Source: Planctomycetota bacterium (lineage in GTDB: Bacteria > Planctomycetota > Planctomycetia > Gemmatales > Gemmataceae). Taken from it: 48,239 nucleotides of DNA. The stretch lies in the NCBI GenBank assembly GCA_021809185.1, contig JAKBAI010000010.1, positions 1 through 48,239 on the forward strand, given 5' to 3'. The position numbers were made by a program, and so were the translations under genes. Below the pieces are notes generated by a model. It was not told where the DNA came from, made no database searches, and saw only the letters and a program-made list of their open reading frames with translations. Below are positions 32 to 25,810 of this stretch, one piece after another; the stretch's first letter is position 1; every line of letters starts with the position of its first letter.

Positions 32-2704
32 CTAGTTCATATTCTCCAATCGAACCAGCAATCGTTGGATCCGATCGGCCAATTTTTCGCTGCTCATCGT
101 GCCTTGAATCCGTTCGACCAGCAAAGGGAATGAGAAAGGAGAAGGATTTCGCAACGGAACCATACGCAGTTGAAGGGAAGGAAGTTTCTCGAGCACGGTT
201 TGAATCTTTTGCCAATCGAATTGGCGGTTGAGTACCTCTTCGCGTGCTTGACGTAAAAGTAAGTTGTCGGGATCATATCCCCGAAAAACTTCGTAAAACA
301 TATTGCTGCTCGCTTGAAGTTGGCGATCCGGTTTGCCGGTACCCGGATAGCCGGAAGAGACTAGCCCACTTATTCGGGCAATTTCACGGAATTGGCGTTT
401 CGTCGCTTCGGTTACATTCACCATTTTCTCTAGATCAGCTGGGACACCCTCTAACTGAAACCATTGGCGAAAGTCTTGTTCTGTTGGAGATGGTAAAAAT
501 GATAATGGGGGACTGAGTAACAGAGTAAATCCGTGATCGTTCACTGCAAATTGGACCGATATTTTTACTTGTTGCGTTAATCGATAAGCGAGCAGGGTAG
601 CTAAACCTTCATGGACCAGTGCCCCTTCAAAAGGATAAATAAATAGATATAGACCTTCTCTGGTTTCCCAATTCTCGATAAGCCATTCATTTTGGTTAGG
701 AATAACGGAATATTTTTGTTGCAATTGCAAAAGCGGTTGCAGAGCAGTAAGAGCTTTTTTTACAGCGGTGCTAGCCGATTTCCAGTCGTTGTCGTTCTGC
801 CCTTGCTGTTGATCTGGTTGAGAGTCGCTGTTCGCTAAGCGATCGAGTAGACAACGAATTTCGGTGCCAATCTCGGCGGATAAAGGCAATTTGCCCCCCA
901 ACCAACGAGGAATCAATGTGGCTTGGCGTTTCGACTTTTTGACCCAGACGGTCATCTCATGCGTGCGGACCATCTCCACCGCTTGGCCAGCAAATATAAA
1001 GCAATCCCCTTCTTGCAGTTTGGCTATAAACGATTCCTCAATAGAGCCTAATCGTTTCCCGCTCAAATAGCGTACTCCCATGGTGCTCTCGCTCATAATC
1101 GTGCCAATGGCCATTCGTTGCCGTCGGATAATTGCTTTATCTGTCACCCGATACAGCCCATTTTCTAATTTTACACGCTGAAAATCGTCGTATGCCGACA
1201 AGATTTTTCCCCCTCTTGTTACAAAATCGATGGCCCATTCAAATTCTTCTGGTGTGAGGGTTTCATAGGAACGAGCGGTGCGTATTTCATTAAACAGATC
1301 TTCTTTTGTAAAACCACTACCAATCGCTATGGTCACTAGAAATTGGATTAGAACATCGATCGGTTTACTTGGATGGATGATCGCTTCTATTTTTCCTTGC
1401 GAAATTGCTTTTTCTACAGCAGCAATTTCCAATATTTCCAGGGCATTCGCTGGTAAGAAGTAGACATTGCTCTGTTTACCTGGTTGATGTCTACTCCGCC
1501 CGATACGCTGAATAAATCGGGCAATCCCTTTGGGACTGCCGATCTGAACCATCTGATCGACCGGAGAAAAATCGATGCCAAGATCGAGACTCGAAGTGCA
1601 AATAACGCACTTCAATTTCCCCAAGCGAAGTTGATCTTCAATCCAGGTGCGCAGTTTGCGATCTAGGGAGCCGTGATGAACCGCTAAGAGACCCGCCCAG
1701 TCCGGTCTTTGCTGTAAAATTGCCTGATACCATATCTCTGATTGTGCTCGGGTATTGGTAAAAACAAGTGAGCTTTGTTGAGAATGAAGAACCTTCAGTA
1801 ACTCGGGAAGGAGCTTTAATCCCAAGTGACCAGCCCAAGGGAATCGGTCTAGCTTTTCGGGTAATAGTATTTTGAGATCGATTTTTCGTTTCTGATAGTC
1901 CTGAATGAGAACCCCAGAATGATTGGTCCCCAATAAAATTGACATAGCTTCCTTAGGATCTGCTAGAGTTGCAGATAATCCCCAAATTCGCATCTGGGGA
2001 TTCAGAGAGCGAAGATGGGCCAGTAGCAATTCTGTTTGTACCCCTCGTTTACTGGCCAATAACGCATGCCATTCATCGACGACGACTAAACGGAGGTTGC
2101 CTAGGATTTGATGAGCTAGCTCTTGCGTCATCAATAAACAGATACTCTCTGGAGTGGTGATTAAAACATCTGGCATCTTTTTCAGCTGGCGAGAGCGCGC
2201 GGAATTTGAAGTGTCCCCCGTGCGAATGCCGATCTGCCAATCGGGCATCAGCTTTTGAATCGCTTTATCGAGATTCATGAGCGTATCGTTGGCTAATGCA
2301 CGTAAAGGGGTTACCCATAATATTTTTAGATTGCTTTTACCAAATTCGATGTTTTCGGCTTGCGGTTGAACCGTATTCTTTTCGATGGGTTTTTTTAGCC
2401 TAGCTTCTAGTCTAGCTTCTATGAGAGCTCCCAAAAATGCCGCATAGGTTTTCCCCATCCCGGTTGCTGTTTGGATCAAACCACTTTCACCAGCTAAGTA
2501 TCTTTCCCAAGCTTCAATTTGAAACAGGAAAGGTTGCCAACCCTGCTCTCGAAACCATTTTTTGACGTTGCGAATACCGGCTTTTTGCTCCGATGTTATT
2601 CGATTGGTATCTATCTGAGTCGTTTGCTGATTCGCTATTGAACATTTTTCTTGGTTCGATTTTTCTGGAATGGGAACTTCCGATATTTGTTGGTTTCTGC
2701 TCAT
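32..2704 (-). CDS. Lhr-type DEXH helicase, ligase-associated class
   Basis: Superfamily 2 ATP-dependent helicase of 890 residues, complete, with its stop near the left edge. Visible motifs are Walker A TGMGKT (residues 81-86), motif II DEWH (210-213) followed by LLASKRGVQTE, which is typical of the Lhr-core/ligase-associated helicases, motif III SAT (244-246), and the C-terminal helicase block with IQRIGRSRHQPG. In other bacteria this class is encoded with an ATP-dependent DNA ligase, a nuclease and a metallo-beta-lactamase-fold exonuclease and acts in DNA repair. Any such partner would lie downstream, beyond the left edge, so the link is unproven here. A Gln/Asn/Asp-rich stretch interrupts the C-terminal half, near residues 635-655. 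The 45-residue N-terminal tail is low complexity, and a later start is possible. Confidence 0.9.
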   Translation of the reverse strand: MSRNQQISEVPIPEKSNQEKCSIANQQTTQIDTNRITSEQKAGIRNVKKWFREQGWQPFLFQIEAWERYLAGESGLIQTATGMGKTYAAFLGALIEARLEARLKKPIEKNTVQPQAENIEFGKSNLKILWVTPLRALANDTLMNLDKAIQKLMPDWQIGIRTGDTSNSARSRQLKKMPDVLITTPESICLLMTQELAHQILGNLRLVVVDEWHALLASKRGVQTELLLAHLRSLNPQMRIWGLSATLADPKEAMSILLGTNHSGVLIQDYQKRKIDLKILLPEKLDRFPWAGHLGLKLLPELLKVLHSQQSSLVFTNTRAQSEIWYQAILQQRPDWAGLLAVHHGSLDRKLRTWIEDQLRLGKLKCVICTSSLDLGIDFSPVDQMVQIGSPKGIARFIQRIGRSRHQPGKQSNVYFLPANALEILEIAAVEKAISQGKIEAIIHPSKPIDVLIQFLVTIAIGSGFTKEDLFNEIRTARSYETLTPEEFEWAIDFVTRGGKILSAYDDFQRVKLENGLYRVTDKAIIRRQRMAIGTIMSESTMGVRYLSGKRLGSIEESFIAKLQEGDCFIFAGQAVEMVRTHEMTVWVKKSKRQATLIPRWLGGKLPLSAEIGTEIRCLLDRLANSDSQPDQQQGQNDNDWKSASTAVKKALTALQPLLQLQQKYSVIPNQNEWLIENWETREGLYLFIYPFEGALVHEGLATLLAYRLTQQVKISVQFAVNDHGFTLLLSPPLSFLPSPTEQDFRQWFQLEGVPADLEKMVNVTEATKRQFREIARISGLVSSGYPGTGKPDRQLQASSNMFYEVFRGYDPDNLLLRQAREEVLNRQFDWQKIQTVLEKLPSLQLRMVPLRNPSPFSFPLLVERIQGTMSSEKLADRIQRLLVRLENMN

Positions 2705-2880
2705 GCTTGTTGCAGCTTGGTGTTCTGGGTTTTCCCCATGAAGATTTTTATTGAATTTCTATTATTTCATGCTTGAATTTTTCATGCTTTATAGCATTCA
2801 TAGTCAGTGAAGTGCCATAAAAAAAGAGCTGAACTGCGTGGAGGAGAAAAGGGATCTATAATAATCAGAAATAACAATAA

Positions 2881-2915
2881 AAGAGGGGTAATTGATTTTC
2901 TCAATTACCCCTCTT
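2881..2915 (-). terminator. Hairpin downstream of the PDZ gene
   Basis: Perfect 15-bp inverted repeat (2881-2895 with 2901-2915) and a 5-nt loop, 73 nt past the stop of the PDZ gene. Read on the minus strand it is followed by a T-rich run (TTATTGTTATTT), as expected of an intrinsic terminator. The core AGAGGGGYAA recurs in the hairpin at 4859-4890. Confidence 0.75.
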
Positions 2916-2988
2916 AATGACCTCTATTTAAACCATCGATCGAAACGGAATTCCAACTAATTTGGGCGAGATATCTAACACGCAGAGT

Positions 2989-4224
2989 TTACTGAACCGA
3001 ATTCAAAAGTTCCTTGACTCGGTCCCGGTATGATTCTGGAACATCTTCGATCTTTTTGACATCGTAAGATTTCTTTCCATCTTTAATGGAAACATTATCC
3101 AATTCATTTTTATTGTCGGTTTTGTGTCCTTTGATATCGATCCGAACACCATTTTTGACGGAATGAATGGCGAAATCGTCGTTATTGACGGAAACAGAAA
3201 TCGATTCCTGATTCAAATTGTTGTTACCATTGAAAAGATTGTTACCACCAACGCCAATTCCACCAATCTCTCTGGGTTGATCGAAAACAGGAATTTCTGG
3301 CAGCTTGATATTGTCGACTTTTTCCCGTTTTCCTTTGCGAATAATGGTCATGGAGAATGGGGCTTTCTGATCAAGATTCTGAACGGTGCGGGAAAAAGTA
3401 ATCGGGTCATCCGCCACCGATTTCCCATTCATTTCCACGATAATGTCATTGGTTTTAAGCCCTGCTTTATCGGCAGCAGAACCTACACGAACGGAACGAA
3501 CAACCATCCCAGTACGAGGCGGCAAATTTAGCTGATCGACTAGAACTTCCGAAGGGGTTTCTATCGATATTCCCAATCGGCCATTACCGGGCTGTCCAAA
3601 AGGGAATCCTCTACCAAAATCTCCGGGCATAAAATTGATAATTCCGCCATTTCGTTGCATTTGCTGAAATCGTTCTAATTGACGCCGATTCATTTCTTGA
3701 ATTTCGCGGATCATTTTATCCATATCAGCAGGGAAACCACCGAAACCGGGCATCATGCCGGGATTAAATGCAGGGCCTCCAAAGCCACCAAACCCTGGAT
3801 TAAATTGATTTTGTGGAACCTGCGGGCGATTTTTGGCATCGATTTCATCCATAATTTTGTGATATTTTCGTATTGTTTCTTCATATCGTGGATCGTTCAA
3901 ATCCATCTTTTTGATCATTTCCTCGAGCTGCTTCCTCTGAGTTTCTAGATCGGTATTTTTCCCTTTTTCTGGGGTCACTGTTTTGGGATCTTTAGGGTTT
4001 GGATTTCCCGAATCTTCTGGGCGAGTAACGGGAGCTACTTTCGGAGGATTTGTCTGGTCCCCTTTGACGGGAATCAGTTTTTTATCCAAAGGCGGGGTAT
4101 CTTGGGAGATCTTATCCAAAGCTGATACCACTGTCGTAGATAAGCCATATGCCATAGCTGTTGATATGCTTCCGACTCCTAAAAATAACAAAGCCCATTT
4201 TATTTTAATCAATCGATTTTTCAT
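2989..4224 (-). CDS. Exported PDZ-domain protein
   Basis: The longer reading frame begins at 4266, but the ATG at 4224 has GAAAGGAAAT upstream and starts a clean signal peptide or anchor (MKNRLIKIKWALLFLGVG), giving 411 residues. Order of parts: signal segment; Pro/Lys-rich charged linker; a Glu/Lys-rich helical stretch; Gly/Phe/Pro-rich stretch (about 135-165); Gln/Arg-rich helix; one PDZ domain (about 210-305) with AGLKTNDIIVEMNGKSV; Asn-rich tail. No protease catalytic domain is visible, so it is probably a periplasmic adaptor or binding protein rather than a DegP-type protease. Its PDZ closely resembles the C-terminal PDZ of the M56 protein encoded upstream on the same strand (5013-8384). 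Substrate unknown. Confidence 0.8.
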   Translation of the reverse strand: MKNRLIKIKWALLFLGVGSISTAMAYGLSTTVVSALDKISQDTPPLDKKLIPVKGDQTNPPKVAPVTRPEDSGNPNPKDPKTVTPEKGKNTDLETQRKQLEEMIKKMDLNDPRYEETIRKYHKIMDEIDAKNRPQVPQNQFNPGFGGFGGPAFNPGMMPGFGGFPADMDKMIREIQEMNRRQLERFQQMQRNGGIINFMPGDFGRGFPFGQPGNGRLGISIETPSEVLVDQLNLPPRTGMVVRSVRVGSAADKAGLKTNDIIVEMNGKSVADDPITFSRTVQNLDQKAPFSMTIIRKGKREKVDNIKLPEIPVFDQPREIGGIGVGGNNLFNGNNNLNQESISVSVNNDDFAIHSVKNGVRIDIKGHKTDNKNELDNVSIKDGKKSYDVKKIEDVPESYRDRVKELLNSVQ

Positions 4225-5012
4225 AGTTCTATTTCCTTTCGTGCAATTCAATTGTTTTATTTTCAACTAAACTTCAGAATCTTCTGTTTAGGTTTTTTAA
4301 TTAGATTTTGTGAAAATTTTAATTTTGTTTAATTCCTATAAAATTAAACCCTATTAATACTAAACTTCACTTCCGTGTTAACTTGCGCAGTTTTGGGAAG
4401 AAAATTATTTTTTTTCAAATAAATGAATGTTTGATCTAATTTTATCCGCTCGAAATCGAGATTTAGCAATCGAGGTTTCGAATCATTGCATTAAAATTTT
4501 AATTTCCTTTTACTGATTGGATATTTAATTCCATCTTATTGTTCCGAACTAACATAAAAGTTTCCACATCCATTATCTCTCCTTTTTTCATGAATCTGCT
4601 CAGATTGTGCACTGAGAATGCACTAAAGTGGGTTTTGGATAACTTATATAATCTTTTCATCCTTGAATTTGGGGTAATATCATGTTCTATTCTTTAAACG
4701 TCCGTTGCTAATCATTGGTTTGCTCATTTCTGCCATAAATTTTTTAACAATTATCAACCGCTTTTCGTTTCGATATATAAATATAAATAATTCTTTTATG
4801 TATAAATTCGAGGTTTTCTCCTTTCTCAAATTAAAGTTAGAATCAAACTTCTAGCAAGAGAGGGGCAATTTTTTGATTATTTGCCCCTCTTTGATTTCAT
4901 CTGATAAACTTTTTCCTACCCTGATACCTCTTTTTCAAAAAGCTTGTGGATTTTGAAGAACTGGTTCAGGGGAGGAATCTATCTAGCAAAACTCATACTT
5001 TCGTAAACATGC
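4225..5012. other. A+T-rich intergenic region
   Basis: About 790 nt between the PDZ gene and the M56 gene, with no convincing reading frame. It is markedly A+T-rich and must hold the promoter of the PDZ gene, but I see no box pair near consensus. The only clear structure is the hairpin at 4859-4890. Confidence 0.6.
4859..4890 (-). terminator. Hairpin downstream of the M56/PDZ gene
   Basis: Perfect 10-bp stem (4859-4868 with 4881-4890) with a 12-nt T-rich loop, about 120 nt past the stop of the M56 gene. The stem AGAGGGGCAA nearly matches that of the hairpin at 2881-2915. No strong T-run follows on the minus strand, so termination efficiency is uncertain. Confidence 0.5.
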
Positions 5013-8000
5013 TTATGGTTTGCATTCTACTTTGACTGTTTTACCTTTACGAATCAGCTGAATGACGATCTTTTTACCGGAAGCTTGATCGACAAGAGCT
5101 TGAAAACTCTTGGGTTCCGAGATTACCTCTTTATTATTGATGCGTAAAACAATATCATTCGCTTTTAAGCCAGCTTTTGCTGCTTTCGATTCCGGTTTAA
5201 CCTGAATAATCACCAGCCCTTTTCCCTGTTTGAGATCGAACTGTTCTGCCACAACCGAAATTGGTTTCTCCACTTTCATTCCCCATTTGATATAATCCGT
5301 GGTTTGCGTAGGAATAAAATTGGAATCGATCGAAAAATCGACACCTATCACACCCGTAGGAACAGTATTAGTTGGCGGTAGTAGTGGCGGTGGAGATTTT
5401 GTCGCACTACCAGGAACTCCAGGAAGTGGATCGGGAGTTAACGATATCGATGGAGTTCCAGGACTCGGAATTACTCGAATTGTTGGCACGCTACCAGGAG
5501 CTTCAGGAACTGGAGCAGCTGTTGGCGGTAGCGGTGGGGTATTTGAAGTCGGAGCTTCTCGAAGGGGTGGCATTCTTGGTGATTGACCAGGATTTGTAAC
5601 TCGGATTGCAATAGGATTTTTTTCTTCCTGAGTGACAGTGACCGTTCCGTTTTTATCAGATATGGTAGTGTAAGTTGTTGACGATTTTATTGTTGTGTTC
5701 TCTTTATCGGATTTGAGATTCCATTTTGTTTGATTCCTTTCCGCTGGACCATGGCAGGCCATGCAAGCCTGTTTTTTTAGTAATACGGATAAAACTTTGA
5801 AATCATTCTTTTTAAGTTCCTCAGAGCTGATCACCTCGTCAATTTCTTTCATAAGGATTAAATCTCTTTTTATAGGGTGCAGATTCTGAAGTATAGAATG
5901 AAGTTTTTTGGCCAAGTCAACTTGTCCTTCCAAGAACTCAATTTCTCCGATTGCGTGGGCGGCCCTAAGTTTGCAAATCGCTGCCAATTTCTTTTCGATG
6001 AGTTTGGTCTCATTCGTACCCAATTGCGAAATATGCAAACTTGGTGTATACGCCGTGATGAGAGGAGCATCAATAACAACCCAATCTGTAACAGAATCTT
6101 GCCGAGAAGATAATAACCTCATCCGCAATTTTTTAATTTCTTCAGCTTTGGCTTTAACCTCTTCTAACATTTTCAATCGAGTATTTTCTAGAGATTGAAC
6201 CTGTTGGGCGATTTGTTTAGCGATTGCATCCGAGGAGTGATATCGTTTTAATCCCGCAATTGTTTGAGCAATTTGGTCTATATGAGCTTCGGAGGTTTTT
6301 ACATGTTGTTCCAGAGTGGCAATACGTGTTTTGAGCAGCTGCAAATGAGCCAGTGCTTCTTTATTTGATACTGCTTTGAAATAAAAGGTATTTCCAGATT
6401 TATTCTTATCTGGTTCAGGAACCTCCATATAAAAGAACAAGTTATCTTTCAGCATTGACTTCTTATCAGAACTGGCTTGGTTTTCTGGAGTTTTGATTAT
6501 GGTAGGGAAAAATTTAAGTTTCCATTGAGAATCGTTGTTTTTCTTGGCGGGATTATTTTTATCATCTGAAACAATATCCCCTAAAAACAACTCGGCTTGC
6601 GTTTCAAAAATGTCTTGTTGGATAAAGATCCCTTTGGACTGATTATTTTTAGGTGAAGCAGATTTGGATTTCAACGTATTTATCTCCATCTGCAATTTCG
6701 TTCGTTTCTTTTCGAGAATGAGCAAAATATCTTTCACATCGGTATCTTTGGCAGATTGTAATTGAGCCATAGCGGAATTTATTTTTTGCATTTCGGCTTC
6801 GAGCTGTTTTATACGGTTCACTAGCTCATTTTTATCCGATTGCATCTGGAATGTCATGTAAAAGACATTAGCATCCCCTTTAATCTTTTTACGACTGTTT
6901 TCGATTTCAACAATTCCCTGTGCCAATTGGAGGATCGATACGTTCTTTTGATTTTTGAGTAATTTTTGATATTCCTCTAATTTCTTTTTGGCAGTAGCTA
7001 AGTCAACTTTGGATGATTTATCCTTTTCTTTTTGTTGAATCACTTTTGCAAAATCTTTCAAAAGTTCATGGAAATAGACTTCCATAACCTGGTGGGCCAT
7101 TTTACTCTGAGCCGATTCTTCAACGGCAAGCTCGATCCTGCCACTAAATTGCACAGGTTTATTGGTTTGAGCCGAAGCCTCGCTTTGCGTAAATCGAAAG
7201 CTACCCAAAAACATTGCCAACAACAAAAATAACGGTGCACAGAAATATCGGCAAAACCGCGACGGTCTTCCCGATCCCTGCATCATTGTTGGCGGGGTAT
7301 TCAATAACATATCAATTCTCCTCGATAATTGTGATGGGACGCTCGCCATGCCGACAACCCCTGTCGCCATTACTGGACGAGTCGCCATTCTCAATAAAAA
7401 TGAAGCATATTCCAGCACATTCCCTTTTTCATGAGTATGAGTCTGGATAATCGTCGACCGATCCGCAACCAATTCCTGGTCCAGTTCAATTCCTTTGCGA
7501 AATATGGAAAATAACCGTAACCAGCAATAATAAAATGACTGAGATAATCCTAATAGCCACATAAAACGAATATCGCCGCTGTGCAGATGGTGGCATTCAT
7601 GGCAGATAACCCAGCGAAGTTGTTCTTCGTAAGCGGTTGTTCCCAGTTGATTATTCAGTTCGATTGGCAATAATATCTTTGGCTGCCAAAGACCAAAGCA
7701 AATGGGTGAACTGATGCGCTGACTCACTCGGATTTGCAATCGTTCACGTAAGCGCTTTTTGTCTTCGGGTATCAGTGCTTTCCATAGTTCGTCTCGATCC
7801 GCCGATAATTTCCGCGCTTGTTTCCACCAGCGGTATAGGCCGATTTGACCTATCATAAACCAAATCAGAAATAGGCCGGCCCCGGCGATATAAGCAATTC
7901 CAAAATAGTAGAGCCATTTATGTTCACGGACCGCTTCGGAATTGGCAGCAAGTTCCGAGGAATCGGCAGTTAACTTATTGATGGTATTTTCAATCCACTC

Positions 8001-8384
8001 ACTAGGGCGAATTATGTTCAAATAGTCATCACTAGTGATCAATACGGGCTGTGACCCCCCCGCATTTGCCATGGAACCCGAGCTGGTCTCCCTAGCCAGA
8101 TCGACTTCTGTCGCGCTGCTATCCACAAATTTATCTTCGTTCAAATAGTTATCTGTTTTTGCTGTTGCTGAATACGGATCGCCCGCTAAAGTAAACCAGC
8201 GCGGTAAAAGAGCGCAGACCGGAATGATCAGCAAAGTAATAACGCACCAAAATGCCACTCGTAACCGGTCCGTTGGGTTACTTAACCAACCCCTTAAGAG
8301 GATCGATAGAGTCAGGACGATTCCCCCTGCCAGTACCGTTCTCAAGGCCCATTCTTGTATCTCCACAGTTGCAATGAGGATCAT
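5013..8384 (-). CDS. BlaR1-like M56 membrane protease with CxxCH motif and PDZ
   Basis: Membrane sensor-protease of 1123 residues. The N-terminal half is M56/BlaR1-like: several membrane helices, zinc motif HECHH (262-266), downstream ELDQELVAD, and a last membrane helix near 375-395. In BlaR1 the protease faces the cytoplasm and the part after the last helix is an external penicillin-binding sensor. Here that part is replaced by a long Lys/Glu-rich coiled coil (about 410-850), a haem-c-like CMACH (874-878) followed by GPAERNQTKW, a Pro/Thr-rich linker (about 925-1010) and a PDZ domain (about 1030-1120). The start is fixed by GGGGAGG overlapping the stop of blaI, 2 nt apart, implying translational coupling. 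Known BlaR proteins trigger cleavage of BlaI. That this one senses redox state, ligand or protein ends is inference. Confidence 0.85.
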   Translation of the reverse strand: MILIATVEIQEWALRTVLAGGIVLTLSILLRGWLSNPTDRLRVAFWCVITLLIIPVCALLPRWFTLAGDPYSATAKTDNYLNEDKFVDSSATEVDLARETSSGSMANAGGSQPVLITSDDYLNIIRPSEWIENTINKLTADSSELAANSEAVREHKWLYYFGIAYIAGAGLFLIWFMIGQIGLYRWWKQARKLSADRDELWKALIPEDKKRLRERLQIRVSQRISSPICFGLWQPKILLPIELNNQLGTTAYEEQLRWVICHECHHLHSGDIRFMWLLGLSQSFYYCWLRLFSIFRKGIELDQELVADRSTIIQTHTHEKGNVLEYASFLLRMATRPVMATGVVGMASVPSQLSRRIDMLLNTPPTMMQGSGRPSRFCRYFCAPLFLLLAMFLGSFRFTQSEASAQTNKPVQFSGRIELAVEESAQSKMAHQVMEVYFHELLKDFAKVIQQKEKDKSSKVDLATAKKKLEEYQKLLKNQKNVSILQLAQGIVEIENSRKKIKGDANVFYMTFQMQSDKNELVNRIKQLEAEMQKINSAMAQLQSAKDTDVKDILLILEKKRTKLQMEINTLKSKSASPKNNQSKGIFIQQDIFETQAELFLGDIVSDDKNNPAKKNNDSQWKLKFFPTIIKTPENQASSDKKSMLKDNLFFYMEVPEPDKNKSGNTFYFKAVSNKEALAHLQLLKTRIATLEQHVKTSEAHIDQIAQTIAGLKRYHSSDAIAKQIAQQVQSLENTRLKMLEEVKAKAEEIKKLRMRLLSSRQDSVTDWVVIDAPLITAYTPSLHISQLGTNETKLIEKKLAAICKLRAAHAIGEIEFLEGQVDLAKKLHSILQNLHPIKRDLILMKEIDEVISSEELKKNDFKVLSVLLKKQACMACHGPAERNQTKWNLKSDKENTTIKSSTTYTTISDKNGTVTVTQEEKNPIAIRVTNPGQSPRMPPLREAPTSNTPPLPPTAAPVPEAPGSVPTIRVIPSPGTPSISLTPDPLPGVPGSATKSPPPLLPPTNTVPTGVIGVDFSIDSNFIPTQTTDYIKWGMKVEKPISVVAEQFDLKQGKGLVIIQVKPESKAAKAGLKANDIVLRINNKEVISEPKSFQALVDQASGKKIVIQLIRKGKTVKVECKP

Positions 8385-8386
8385 GC

Positions 8387-8785
8387 TTACCTCCCCTTAG
8401 AACGGAGTTGTTGCTGTTTCGCCTTTGCCTGTTCAATTAATTGATGAAGTTGATTCAACTCTTCTGGCGGAATTTTTTCTGCTTTAAGCAAGCTCATCAC
8501 CAACTGAGATGCTGCACCATCAAAAACTCGATCCAGAAATCGCGACGCCGATTCTTCACGAGAAAAATTGGGGGTATAGATAAAAGTTCTTCCTTCTACG
8601 TGATGCGAAACCAATTCTTTGTTTTCCATCACCCGTAAAAGGGTTTGAACGGTGTTGTAGGCCAAATCTTCTGCTCCATCCTGGTTCAACTCTTCGTGTA
8701 CCAAGCGAACACTACTAGGCCCTTTTTCCCACAATACTTTGAGAATTTCCAATTCTCGAACGGTGGGAGATGGCAAATCTTCCAT
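8387..8785 (-). CDS. blaI: BlaI/MecI/CopY-family repressor
   Basis: Winged-helix repressor. The open frame extends to 8854, but GAAAGGAGAGAAGAA directly before the ATG at 8785 and the usual family length (about 125 residues) favour the internal start, giving 132 residues that begin MEDLPSPTVRELEILKVLW. The segment LAYNTVQTLLRVMENKEL is the DNA-recognition region typical of the family, followed by the C-terminal dimerisation part. It is the first gene of a two-gene unit with the M56 protease, which presumably inactivates it by cleavage. A near-consensus promoter and a dyad lie 70-130 nt upstream, so autorepression is likely. The target genes beyond its own operon are unknown; classical beta-lactamase genes are absent from the window. 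Confidence 0.9.
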   Translation of the reverse strand: MEDLPSPTVRELEILKVLWEKGPSSVRLVHEELNQDGAEDLAYNTVQTLLRVMENKELVSHHVEGRTFIYTPNFSREESASRFLDRVFDGAASQLVMSLLKAEKIPPEELNQLHQLIEQAKAKQQQLRSKGR

Positions 8786-8854
8786 TTCTTCTCTCCTTTC
8801 TTCGAAGCTCTTCTTCGAAAGTTTTCTTTTTAATATTTTGCGGAGGGACTTCAA

Positions 8855-8879
8855 GTCTTAAAGCCTAAAAACTTAAGAC
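8855..8879 (-). promoter_or_regulatory. Dyad, candidate BlaI operator
   Basis: Inverted repeat GTCTTAA, 11 nt, TTAAGAC. It begins 6 nt after the -10 box of the promoter at 8886-8914, so it covers the predicted transcription start. This is the usual place for a repressor operator. Binding by BlaI is inferred from position only. Confidence 0.6.
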
Positions 8880-8885
8880 ATAGGT

Positions 8886-8914
8886 ATTATCCCGCTTTTT
8901 TCCTACTCTGTCAA
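8886..8914 (-). promoter_or_regulatory. Sigma-70-type promoter of blaI
   Basis: On the minus strand TTGACA (8914-8909), a 17-nt spacer and GATAAT (8891-8886). This is one mismatch from the housekeeping consensus with ideal spacing. The predicted start is near 8879, leaving a leader of about 94 nt before blaI. Confidence 0.7.
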
Positions 8915-9091: not shown

Positions 9092-9439
9092 TCAAGAACC
9101 AGATTCTTCTTTTTCGATTTGCACGATTTGAACATCTTCTATGGTCAATAAGCCAAAAGAGGAATACGGAACAAGTATTTCCAGAGCTTTGGAATAGTGT
9201 TGTTCGGTCTCGATAATTTCGATCCGTATCGGCAGATTTTCACTGAGGGAAAAGAGATGAGTGGTATGCAGAGTGGCATGTTTCCCATAACCGGCAACAC
9301 ATTGCACCACACTAGCCCCTGCGATCCCTTGATGCAGGCACTCTTCGATAATTTTGGCATAAAGCAGTTGGTGATGTATTTTTTGTGTGGAATCGCAATA
9401 GAAGATCAATTTTTTGGCGGTAACAGTTTGCCATTTCAT
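9092..9439 (-). CDS. DUF190 family protein
   Basis: Small soluble protein of 115 residues resembling DUF190, a family often encoded beside CrcB fluoride channels. Typical features are an early AKKLIFYCDS strand, a helix with YAKIIEECLHQGIAGASV, and a C-terminal LLTIEDVQIVQIE strand, giving an alpha/beta ferredoxin-like outline related to PII-type folds. GGAG lies about 9 nt before the ATG. The CrcB gene lies 81 nt upstream on the same strand, which supports a shared role in fluoride tolerance. Its biochemical role is not established. Confidence 0.85.
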   Translation of the reverse strand: MKWQTVTAKKLIFYCDSTQKIHHQLLYAKIIEECLHQGIAGASVVQCVAGYGKHATLHTTHLFSLSENLPIRIEIIETEQHYSKALEILVPYSSFGLLTIEDVQIVQIEKEESGS

Positions 9440-9520
9440 ATTCGAATACTCCAGCGAAGAAAGTATAGCGGTGGTATCTGGGTCGTGTGACGGAGTTGAT
9501 AGCGATCGAGGAATAATCGA

Positions 9521-9952
9521 TTATCTTCTGCCAAAAATAGACAGCGCGAGCAGAACGCCAGCGATAACACCAATCAACCCCAAAAGAACACTCAAAAAAA
9601 TATTGCCACCTGCGGCCAGATAATTTTGTTCTCGGATTAGTTTATATGTTTCCCATTCAAAAGTGGAGAAGGTGGTATAGCCGCCACAAAAACCGGTTCC
9701 AAGTAAAAGATAAAGTTCGCGCCGAGGGGGTAAAAGGCGTTCCAGAAAGATGATCGCTAGAAAACCGAGAAGAAATGAGCCAGAGACATTGATAACAAGA
9801 GTTCCCCAAGGGAACCCCCAAGGCCAGCCTTGCTGGTCGATCCAGCGGCCAAGATAATAACGCAAATTGCCTCCCACCGCACTGCCCAAAGATACAAGAG
9901 TGATGGGATGGGTTACTAAATCATAAGCTGAGTTAGCCAAAAAAATCGGCAT
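9521..9952 (-). CDS. crcB: Fluoride channel CrcB/Fluc
   Basis: Small four-helix membrane protein. Family signatures are seen: GSAVGGNLRYYLG, GTLVINVSGSFLLGF and GFCGGYTTFSTFEWE, which line the fluoride pore in Fluc dimers. The longest frame starts at 9985, but AAAAGGAG sits 7 nt before the ATG at 9952, giving 143 residues, near the usual family size of about 125. It exports cytoplasmic fluoride as a dual-topology dimer. A single crcB gene is present, so a homodimer is expected. No fluoride riboswitch is recognisable in the short gap to the upstream gene. Confidence 0.93.
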   Translation of the reverse strand: MPIFLANSAYDLVTHPITLVSLGSAVGGNLRYYLGRWIDQQGWPWGFPWGTLVINVSGSFLLGFLAIIFLERLLPPRRELYLLLGTGFCGGYTTFSTFEWETYKLIREQNYLAAGGNIFLSVLLGLIGVIAGVLLALSIFGRR

Positions 9953-9998
9953 GTGATCGCTCCTTTTGTTCAATCCCATCAGCACGATTCTCGATGAA

Positions 9999-23227: not shown

Positions 23228-25810
23228 TTACTGATTAAAGAGGAACTCTTTGGTGTTAATCAAAGCCCAGATAATATTTTCGTAAGCCTGTTTTTTATCT
23301 TTTTCATGTTTCTTCAGATGACTCAATGCTGCATCTAAATCTGCTGAAGAAGGTTTGCGAGCGAAGGCCCAGAGAAATAGTTCCTGAACTTTTTCTTGAT
23401 CGGAACGTTTATCTTTTACCAGCATATCGGATCGAGAGTTGGCTCTAGCCAATTTGTTTTGAACCTCATCGGAATTCAAAAGGTGCAAAGCCTGTGCTAG
23501 ATTCGCTTCGTTGACTCGTTCGCATTCACAAGCACTAATTCGCTGAGGGCGACCAAAGACATCCAGGAAGTAAGAGGAGAACGATTCATCCGGAAGTTTC
23601 AGAGCACGATTGGGTGCAAACTTATCCGTAGGGAGTCCGTTGAACTGAGTTGGGCTAGCAGTAACTTCGGAAATCGCATCGAGGAGGACTTCTGCCGAGA
23701 GACGTTTTGGATAATACCGTGCATAAGTCTGTTTGTCGTTTTGATTGAACGAATTGGGAACAGCGCTGAGTTGATAAGTTCTGCTCTTGCAAATGACCTT
23801 AACCATATGTTTAAGACTATATTTATGATCGATCAATTCTTTGGCGAGCGTATCGAGCAATTCTGGGTTCGAAGGAGGGTTGGTAATACGCATATCATCA
23901 AGAGGATCAACAATCCCGCGTCCAAAGAAATGTGCCCAGTATCGGTTAGCGACGGCTTTGGCAAAGAATGGATTTTTTGGATCGGTCATCCAGTTGACTA
24001 AAGCTTCGCGCGGATCTTCATCGGCAGGGATATTCATATCGGGACCATCCAGTGCCCGAGTCGCAGCAACCTTATTGGTCCGTTTGTTGATCACATTGCC
24101 ATCCGAGCGGGTGTAGACAATCATGCGATTGATCTGCTGAGTGGTTGTGGGAACCTGAATCACTTTCTTAGAAACACGAGCAAAAAAGCTGGCCATACCC
24201 CAGTAATCGTCCTGGCTCCATTTTTCGTATGGATGATGGTGGCAGTTTGCGCAAGCAATACGTAATCCCAGAAAGACCTGAGCGGTATCGTCGACAAATT
24301 GCTCTGGCTTCTGCAAGTCTTGGTACCATACCGAGGGAGGGGATTTTTGCACATCGCCAGTAGCAAGTAAGATCTCTCGAACAAATTCATCGTATGGTTT
24401 GTCGTTGGTGATCGATTCTTTAATCCAAGCATGGAAGGCGAAAGTTCCTTCAGCTCGGTTCATATTCTGGCCCCCCTGGCCACGTTTGACTCGAAGAATA
24501 TCAGCCCATTTGTTGGCGAAATAGTAGGCATATTCATTGGAATCGACAAGCCGATCTACCAATTGATCCCGTTTGTTTGCTTGTTTATCGTTGACAAAAT
24601 CTTCTACTTGTTTAGGAGTTGGCAGGGTACCTGTTACATCCAGATAAACTCGGCGAATGAAATTTTCATCGGAAGCAAGATCTGAAGGAACTAAATTGAG
24701 TTCACGCCATTTTTTGGCGGTGAACCGATCGACGATAGTCTGTTCCTTGAATGTCCAATTAGGGGTTTTGAGTTTTTGAGGAACCGTTGCTCGGAATGTC
24801 GCAACCTTCCCTTGATAACGAGCCATGATTGCTGCTTCGCCACTGAGATTTAGCGTGCGGACCAACCCGGTGGTATCGACGATGGCAATTTCTTGATCGT
24901 TACTTTCATACTGTGCTCGGCGAGTGATGTCCAAAATAGTGCCATCCGAATAATGGGCGTACACCGCGAACTGCTGTTTGGCCATTGTTGGCATGATGCG
25001 GTGATCCGGATAAATAGAGATTTTGGTAACCGTGGGATCGGTCGGTTTGCCATAAGGCATACCCGCAGCAATCCAGCGCCGAACTAATTTGTATTCATCA
25101 GAATCTTTTTCCATCTTTTTGCCGCCACCGTGAGCCACGGCACCCACCGCTTTTACTAACAGTAGGCTATTTTCTGGAGAAGAGGGCATTAATCGACGAC
25201 CGCGACCTTCTTTCACTAATGCCGTAAAATCGGTTTCTGGTTCGAAGCCGAGAAGCGAAAGTTTAAAGCCGTTTTGACCACTGGCCTTGCCATGGCAACC
25301 ACCGCTATTACAAGTTAGTTTCGTAAAAACTGGAACCACCTGATTCGCAAAATTGATCGGTAAATTTTCGGTCATGTGGTTAACTTCAATGGGAATCGAT
25401 GCTATCTTGTCCCCATAAGTGGCGAGAATCTTTCCTGAACCGTTTGCCAAAGGAAGAACTCGGCCATTCGTTAAAATTTGTGCGACAACTGCACCCTGGG
25501 TTCTGGTCGAATCAGTGCTTTTGGGAGCTTCAGGAATCAATTGGTACTGGACTTCTCCCGTTAAATCGTATAAGCGGCCATCGGTCCCAAATGCCGTTAC
25601 TATCAATTGTGCTGCTTCATCAATACCGTTCAAGGTGATCTTGCCCGGATATAATTCCATTTTCGAAATTTCATTCGGTTTAATAGCATTCGATGGTAGG
25701 TTTCCAGTCGCTTGCCGCTGGGCATCCTCAGCTCGGAGCGCAGGAGAATAGAAAATTGTTATTTGAAATAGGATTAATGATAAGCAAGTAATCCGTAATT
25801 TGTTATTCAT
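23228..25810 (-). CDS. Exported DUF1549/DUF1553 protein with haem-c-like motif
   Basis: 860 residues, planctomycete-specific architecture. Signal peptide (1-27). An immunoglobulin-like region (about 45-145), then a cytochrome-like segment with CNSGGCH (167-173) and MPSSPENSLLL, a second Ig-like region (about 265-350), DUF1549 (about 370-570) with CANCHHHPYEKW, and DUF1553 (about 600-850) with NRYWAHFFGRGIVDP. These proteins are extracytoplasmic and abundant in Planctomycetota. Haem attachment at CxxxxCH or CxxCH is suspected, with function unproven. GGAG precedes the ATG by 9 nt. The common partner, a DUF1501 gene, is missing on both sides. Confidence 0.9.
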   Translation of the reverse strand: MNNKLRITCLSLILFQITIFYSPALRAEDAQRQATGNLPSNAIKPNEISKMELYPGKITLNGIDEAAQLIVTAFGTDGRLYDLTGEVQYQLIPEAPKSTDSTRTQGAVVAQILTNGRVLPLANGSGKILATYGDKIASIPIEVNHMTENLPINFANQVVPVFTKLTCNSGGCHGKASGQNGFKLSLLGFEPETDFTALVKEGRGRRLMPSSPENSLLLVKAVGAVAHGGGKKMEKDSDEYKLVRRWIAAGMPYGKPTDPTVTKISIYPDHRIMPTMAKQQFAVYAHYSDGTILDITRRAQYESNDQEIAIVDTTGLVRTLNLSGEAAIMARYQGKVATFRATVPQKLKTPNWTFKEQTIVDRFTAKKWRELNLVPSDLASDENFIRRVYLDVTGTLPTPKQVEDFVNDKQANKRDQLVDRLVDSNEYAYYFANKWADILRVKRGQGGQNMNRAEGTFAFHAWIKESITNDKPYDEFVREILLATGDVQKSPPSVWYQDLQKPEQFVDDTAQVFLGLRIACANCHHHPYEKWSQDDYWGMASFFARVSKKVIQVPTTTQQINRMIVYTRSDGNVINKRTNKVAATRALDGPDMNIPADEDPREALVNWMTDPKNPFFAKAVANRYWAHFFGRGIVDPLDDMRITNPPSNPELLDTLAKELIDHKYSLKHMVKVICKSRTYQLSAVPNSFNQNDKQTYARYYPKRLSAEVLLDAISEVTASPTQFNGLPTDKFAPNRALKLPDESFSSYFLDVFGRPQRISACECERVNEANLAQALHLLNSDEVQNKLARANSRSDMLVKDKRSDQEKVQELFLWAFARKPSSADLDAALSHLKKHEKDKKQAYENIIWALINTKEFLFNQ

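Follow-up and report, generated by a model that had tools for sequence, protein, structure and literature searches.

A BlaI-M56 gene pair of Gemmataceae with a coiled-coil and PDZ ectodomain and a candidate operator: a probable protease-repressor switch without a beta-lactam sensor

What does a BlaR1-like protease respond to when the beta-lactam sensor is missing from it? BlaI and M56 proteins are commonly annotated as beta-lactam resistance regulators, and such a pair is encoded on contig JAKBAI010000010.1 of a planctomycete of the family Gemmataceae (assembly GCA_021809185.1), a draft genome of 5.47 Mb in 407 contigs. The whole stretch of DNA that was analysed (48,239 nucleotides) is referred to as the window. 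A preliminary description, made from the letters of the DNA alone, had taken the M56 gene for a BlaR1-type protease with a rebuilt external sensor for redox state or misfolded proteins. The pair is probably an autoregulated transmembrane switch made of two Gemmataceae genes, BlaI and M56, in which a coiled-coil/PDZ ectodomain replaces the beta-lactam sensor and the signal comes from envelope proteins. Judged by its parts, the sequences make the protease-repressor switch itself very likely, while analogy makes the state of envelope proteins a moderately likely signal. It is well supported that the switch is of the known M56/BlaI kind and that the replaced sensor and the candidate operator are what is new.

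Domain organisation of the M56 protein

The gene lies at 5013..8384 on the minus strand, as do all features of the window given below. It starts with ATG and encodes 1123 amino acids with no internal stops. A Pfam scan assigned residues 118-360 (7305..8033) to the Peptidase_M56 family (PF05569, E = 2.7e-25, 89.6 bits against a cut-off of 31). The family profile found the BlaR1 structures 8exp and 8exs by sequence with E of about 1e-9. The same structures were the best matches in a Foldseek comparison with the PDB (8exp with E = 2e-5), followed by DegP and DegQ, which matched through the PDZ domain.

The zinc motif HECHH (residues 262-266, 7587..7601) is intact in the alignment with relatives, as the preliminary description had stated. 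The catalytic set is complete with H262, E263, H266, the third zinc ligand E304, D308, R355 and R356, and these residues are invariant or almost so among the relatives. E304 is the counterpart of E242 in BlaR1. The other residues correspond there to H201, E202, H205, D246 and R293/R294, which have been discussed for the active site (PMC9834060).

Hydropathy indicated four hydrophobic helices at about residues 11-36, 38-66, 156-184 and 375-400. The loops 31-43 and 185-215 are rich in Lys and Arg and the loop 63-155 is acidic; from this charge bias, the protease is predicted to face the cytoplasm, and the last 720 residues the exterior. BlaR1, which cleaves BlaI directly, has an N-out/C-out topology in its cryo-EM structure (PMC9834060). 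The predicted arrangement of four transmembrane helices, a cytoplasmic protease and an external C-terminus matches this topology. Together with the profile and fold matches to BlaR1, the loop charges agree with the earlier expectation that the CxxCH motif of the ectodomain faces the exterior.

The preliminary description had assigned some 440 residues of the ectodomain to a coiled coil. A coiled coil is present, but by the AlphaFold confidence pattern it consists of two stretches rather than one, at about residues 423-576 (6657..7118) and 674-762 (6099..6365). Both are confidently predicted helices, with some 97 residues of low confidence between them. Residues 790-872, helical but poorly predicted, precede the haem-c-like, non-conserved motif CMACH, which had been located exactly at residues 874-878 (5751..5765). 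By its composition, a Pro-rich stalk with 30% Pro follows at residues 925-1010 (5355..5612). The protein ends in a PDZ domain of the HtrA/DegP type (residues 1013-1121, 5022..5348) that was identified by Pfam (PF13180, E = 1.3e-11, 45 bits against a cut-off of 27) and by its fold, the closest solved structures being DegP, DegQ and DegS. The rebuilt ectodomain with stalk and PDZ domain thus stands as first described. With 17 aligned sequences, AlphaFold predicted the M56 part mostly with confidence and the helices 423-576 and 674-762 and the PDZ domain with confidence; residues 802-1029 including CMACH were unreliable. Residues 760-930 predicted alone reached a pLDDT (predicted local distance difference test) of 37.

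A C-terminal penicillin-binding (class D-like) domain was found nowhere in the protein by Pfam and NCBIfam scans, and the beta-lactam sensor is absent as had been claimed; blaR1_generic, whose cut-off is 400 bits, scored 41.6. Neither the protein nor the scanned neighbours contained a transpeptidase or beta-lactamase domain. A conventional beta-lactam resistance regulator would fit the protein families, BlaI and M56 being those of the bla/mec regulators. It is nevertheless highly improbable here, with a PDZ domain in place of the penicillin-binding sensor and no beta-lactamase among the scanned neighbours.

BlaI and a putative operator shared by Gemmataceae

The M56 gene is preceded by a gene for a BlaI/MecI-family repressor (8387..8788; PF03965, Penicillinase_R, E = 1.4e-27), which ends 2 bp upstream of it. 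With the PF05569 match, this bears out the proposed pairing of a BlaR1-type protease with BlaI. The list of open reading frames places the blaI start at a TTG (8854); the ATG at 8788 behind AAAGGAG was preferred as the likely start. BlaI aligns with S. aureus BlaI (1sd4) and MecI (1sd6) through the dimerisation and cleavage region, winged helix included, and the P1' residue of the cleavage region is hydrophobic in this alignment. Upstream of blaI lies a sigma-70-like promoter, TTGACA-17-GATAAT (8886..8914, 11/12). Directly 3' of its -10 element, the dyad CCTATGTCTTAAGTTTTTAGG (8864..8884) has the form CCTA-N13-TAGG and is a putative BlaI operator. It is the single match to CCTA-N6/N13-TAGG in the 48-kb window.

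In 43 of the 95 genomes of the family, the M56 part or the PDZ part was matched. A direct protein search of the contigs gave no relatives, whereas an alignment query found them. They belong to Gemmataceae such as Limnoglobus roseus (L064/L038), and twenty of them (L035-L054) were read with their flanks. A BlaI gene lies directly upstream of the M56 gene in all twenty. No further neighbour gene was widely conserved in the flanks of the relatives, so that the module consists of BlaI and M56. The arrangement of promoter and dyad is repeated: in 15 of 19 relatives, blaI is preceded by CCTA-N6-TAGG or CCTA-N13-TAGG just after the -10 element, in one case (L037) as a perfect 23-bp palindrome. Outside blaI-promoter sites, the dyad matched only twice in 202 kb. 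Its position beside the -10 element is hard to explain otherwise, and these sequences suggest that CCTA-N6/N13-TAGG is probably the BlaI operator of Gemmataceae, a candidate newly recognised here. The Firmicute operator pattern is TACA-NN-TGTA; it was not enriched in the window. CCTA-N6/N13-TAGG took the place of an earlier pattern that had not matched the box of the window itself.

Sixteen of the twenty relatives end in a PDZ domain, usually followed by a further conserved C-terminal tail. Across relatives, conservation of the ectodomain is highest in the PDZ domain, and the part that leads from the fourth helix to this domain is hypervariable. The protein belongs to a widespread family of Gemmataceae BlaI-M56-coiled-coil-PDZ modules. 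Modules such as that of Limnoglobus roseus share its gene order, M56 domain, coiled coil, PDZ domain and operator position; they differ from it in their length of about 680-980 amino acids, in having no ectodomain Cys and mostly in carrying the C-terminal tail, which is absent here. Among the papers that were searched, none on planctomycete M56-PDZ proteins or on haem-bearing M56 proteins was found.

With the BlaR1/MecR1 and BlaI/MecI systems (S. aureus, 8exp), the pair shares the M56 domain with its third zinc ligand and Arg pair, the N-out/C-out topology, the adjacent winged-helix repressor and a dyad at the promoter. The dyad itself differs (CCTA-N6/13-TAGG instead of the Firmicute TACA-NN-TGTA), and where BlaR1/MecR1 have a C-terminal beta-lactam-binding domain, the protein here has a coiled coil, the CxxCH, the Pro-rich stalk and a PDZ domain.

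Proposed mechanism and signal

The shared putative operator strengthens the reading as a protease-repressor switch, which had been proposed before, and is the strongest new evidence that the switch is autoregulated. Operator and module together most likely point to an autoregulated protease-repressor switch and not to a beta-lactam sensor. This reading builds on the domains, the predicted topology, the active site, the repressor with its cleavage region, the conservation of the dyad and the absence of a beta-lactam sensor. What we infer is binding of the operator, cleavage of BlaI, the signal, what the PDZ domain binds and a cofactor on CMACH, if it has one.

In the proposed mechanism, BlaI would keep the operon shut by binding the putative CCTA-N13-TAGG operator, where its own transcript begins. 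The M56 protease would sit in the membrane, with the zinc site on the cytoplasmic face and the C-terminal ectodomain exposed to the exterior. A signal received by the ectodomain would activate the protease via the coiled coil; the protease would then cleave BlaI, which would release the operon and any other genes that carry the operator. The signal is most likely the state of envelope proteins, for example C-termini that are exposed and recognised by the PDZ domain in a DegS-like manner. In the PDZ ligand loop, Gly1035 is invariant in the alignment (the loop reads WGM here and RLGV in relatives). By analogy with DegS, this invariant Gly makes exposed envelope-protein C-termini the best candidate signal. 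DegS/RseP share with the M56 protein the control of protease signalling across the membrane by PDZ domains; there, DegS and RseP act with an anti-sigma factor, while an M56 protease and BlaI take these places here and the PDZ ligand is a presumed one.

Several points weigh against this explanation. The M56 protein is only 22-29% identical to its aligned relatives. The operator pattern was picked after inspection of these sequences, and its enrichment is therefore only descriptive. Four of the 19 relatives lack the exact dyad; three of them have a near match and one probably has a mis-called start. Scanning the dyad in the 48-kb window and in 202 kb yielded no regulated targets beyond the own operon. 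The PDZ ligand is derived from analogy. Moreover, no PDZ match was obtained for four relatives (L041, L042, L044 and L052), which makes the PDZ domain dispensable to the module.

The same four relatives have the same operator and share genes downstream of the M56 gene. They perhaps represent another type with a replaced sensor.

BlaI and M56 would here form a signalling module complete in itself, with another sensor and with an operator sequence that is shared and can be tested, so that the regulons of such switches could be mapped in planctomycetes. It also calls for caution in reading planctomycete BlaI-M56 pairs as resistance genes.

The CMACH motif

The explanations of CMACH concern this motif alone and overlap with the BlaI-M56 switch rather than compete with it. 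Haem and redox sensing had been proposed on its account. In a redox or gas sensor, the exported CMACH would carry haem c, and redox state or a bound gas such as NO would change the ectodomain and activate the M56 protease. The motif is exocytoplasmic by the predicted topology and is hardly a chance product, since only a fraction of 2.3e-4 of trials gave a CxxCH when the ectodomain's four Cys (804, 874, 877 and 1121) and 11 His were placed at random. CHECH at residues 261-265 also fits CxxCH formally but is merely the cytoplasmic zinc motif plus a preceding Cys. Sub-threshold matches to the cytochrome families PF22678 (E 0.01) and PF11845 (E 0.05) are centred on CMACH. In 199 genomes of the class, all six such weak matches in long intact open reading frames coincide with cytochrome CxxCH sites, and the genome itself encodes ResB and 13 PSCyt1 haem-c domains.

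Against haem, no cytochrome family passed its cut-off in the Pfam scan (the best, PF22678, reached 16.8 bits against 27), and PF07635 (PSCyt1) had no match on the protein. The flanks of CMACH resemble the genome's own PSCyt1 domains with 13.7 bits; with CMACH fixed, 117 of 2000 flank shuffles (6%) were equally good. An origin of CMACH from PSCyt1 was thus only marginally indicated and was not adopted. A distal haem ligand is not obvious because, apart from Met875 and His878 of the motif, any His or Met is more than 28 residues away, and the AlphaFold structure around it is below 50 pLDDT. The preliminary description had tied the haem proposal to conservation of CxxCH in orthologues. The motif is not conserved: it occurs in none of the 16 PDZ-bearing relatives, all of which have no Cys at all in the ectodomain. 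Haem and redox sensing is unsupported by these comparisons, the haem claim was downgraded, and a haem-c sensor for redox or gas appears unlikely.

The relatives cannot fully test haem binding, since only this genome has the middle region in its entirety: for residues 408-937, neither 102 genomes of the order nor the rest of the own genome contained a relative. From this distribution, CMACH is most likely a lineage-specific addition to the hypervariable part of the ectodomain. It could be a neutral sequence without function in a drifting linker, which would suit a region that has no relative in the order, an ectodomain that varies so strongly between relatives, and a motif known from one draft genome of 407 contigs. 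The shuffle probability of 2.3e-4 and the cytochrome-like context speak against neutrality, which is doubtful but less so than haem binding.

A pair of thiols in CMAC, as disulphide switch or metal site, could instead sense oxidation in the envelope. Four ectodomain cysteines occur where the relatives have none, and CxxC is over-represented in the sampled M56 ectodomains (10 seen, 1.6 expected). The His that directly follows and the HGP context are, however, typical of haem-c sites, and the predicted structure contains no thioredoxin-like fold, so this function is still less probable than a haem.

Among 148 distinct planctomycete M56 proteins, CxxCH was found in the ectodomain of two, with 0.03 expected from composition. 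Besides the protein described here, an unrelated M56 protein of another planctomycete family (L139, G212:C9:19500-25500, 1567-5298 minus) carries CASCH in its ectodomain. Its C-terminus contains a DUF1549 (PSCyt2) fragment (E 2.7e-11), an independent fusion of M56 with a cytochrome-type protein; PSCyt2 accompanies planctomycete cytochromes. M56 ectodomains with haem may thus exist and may have evolved twice, but haem is not a trait of the family of BlaI-M56-coiled-coil-PDZ modules. That a haem-c-gated M56 switch cleaving BlaI arose in planctomycetes, possibly both here and in L139, is improbable to about the same degree as the haem sensor; should haem be bound to CMACH, a transmembrane protease would be controlled here in a way that is new.

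There are precedents for short haem segments in sensors and proteases. The DUF3365/Tll0287 haem Cache domains, which behave as NO sensors, acquired a short CxxCH segment that derives from a cytochrome (PMC12889525). Their CxxCH is about 99% conserved, whereas that of the M56 protein is not conserved and the match here is sub-threshold (E 0.05), so they serve as precedent only. The magnetosome proteins MamE (in its single-magnetochrome form Trypsin-MCR0-PDZ) and MamP combine a very short CxxCH haem domain with a protease and/or PDZ (PMC3971196). They have a serine protease or none and lack BlaI, and their profile matches on the M56 protein are confined to the PDZ domain; they too are a precedent and not a case of membership.

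Neighbouring genes

Downstream of the M56 gene, a terminator-like hairpin (AGAGGGGCAA/TTGCCCCTCT, 4859..4890, z -4.7) suggests a separate transcript for the next gene. This gene (2989..4224) encodes a probably exported protein with coiled coil and PDZ domain and is followed by a strong terminator (2881..2915, z -5.5). Its likely start is the ATG at 4224, the start in the list of open reading frames being 4266. No operator box was found at this gene. The encoded protein has the C-terminal tail that most M56-PDZ relatives carry and that the M56 protein here lacks, and it could be a partner of the M56 protein. An origin as the split-off half of the M56 protein was considered and is unsupported: stand-alone PDZ-tail genes are common in Gemmataceae, and the 20 loci of such genes that were read had no BlaI or M56 gene nearby. 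The PDZ tree does not resolve such an origin, and no decayed M56 remnant was found in the 746-bp gap before the gene.

Upstream of blaI, genes for a DUF190 protein and a CrcB-like protein (fluoride channel family) adjoin each other at 9092-9985. Further away in the window, a planctomycete-typical PSCyt2-PSD1 (DUF1549/DUF1553) protein is encoded at 23228-25810.

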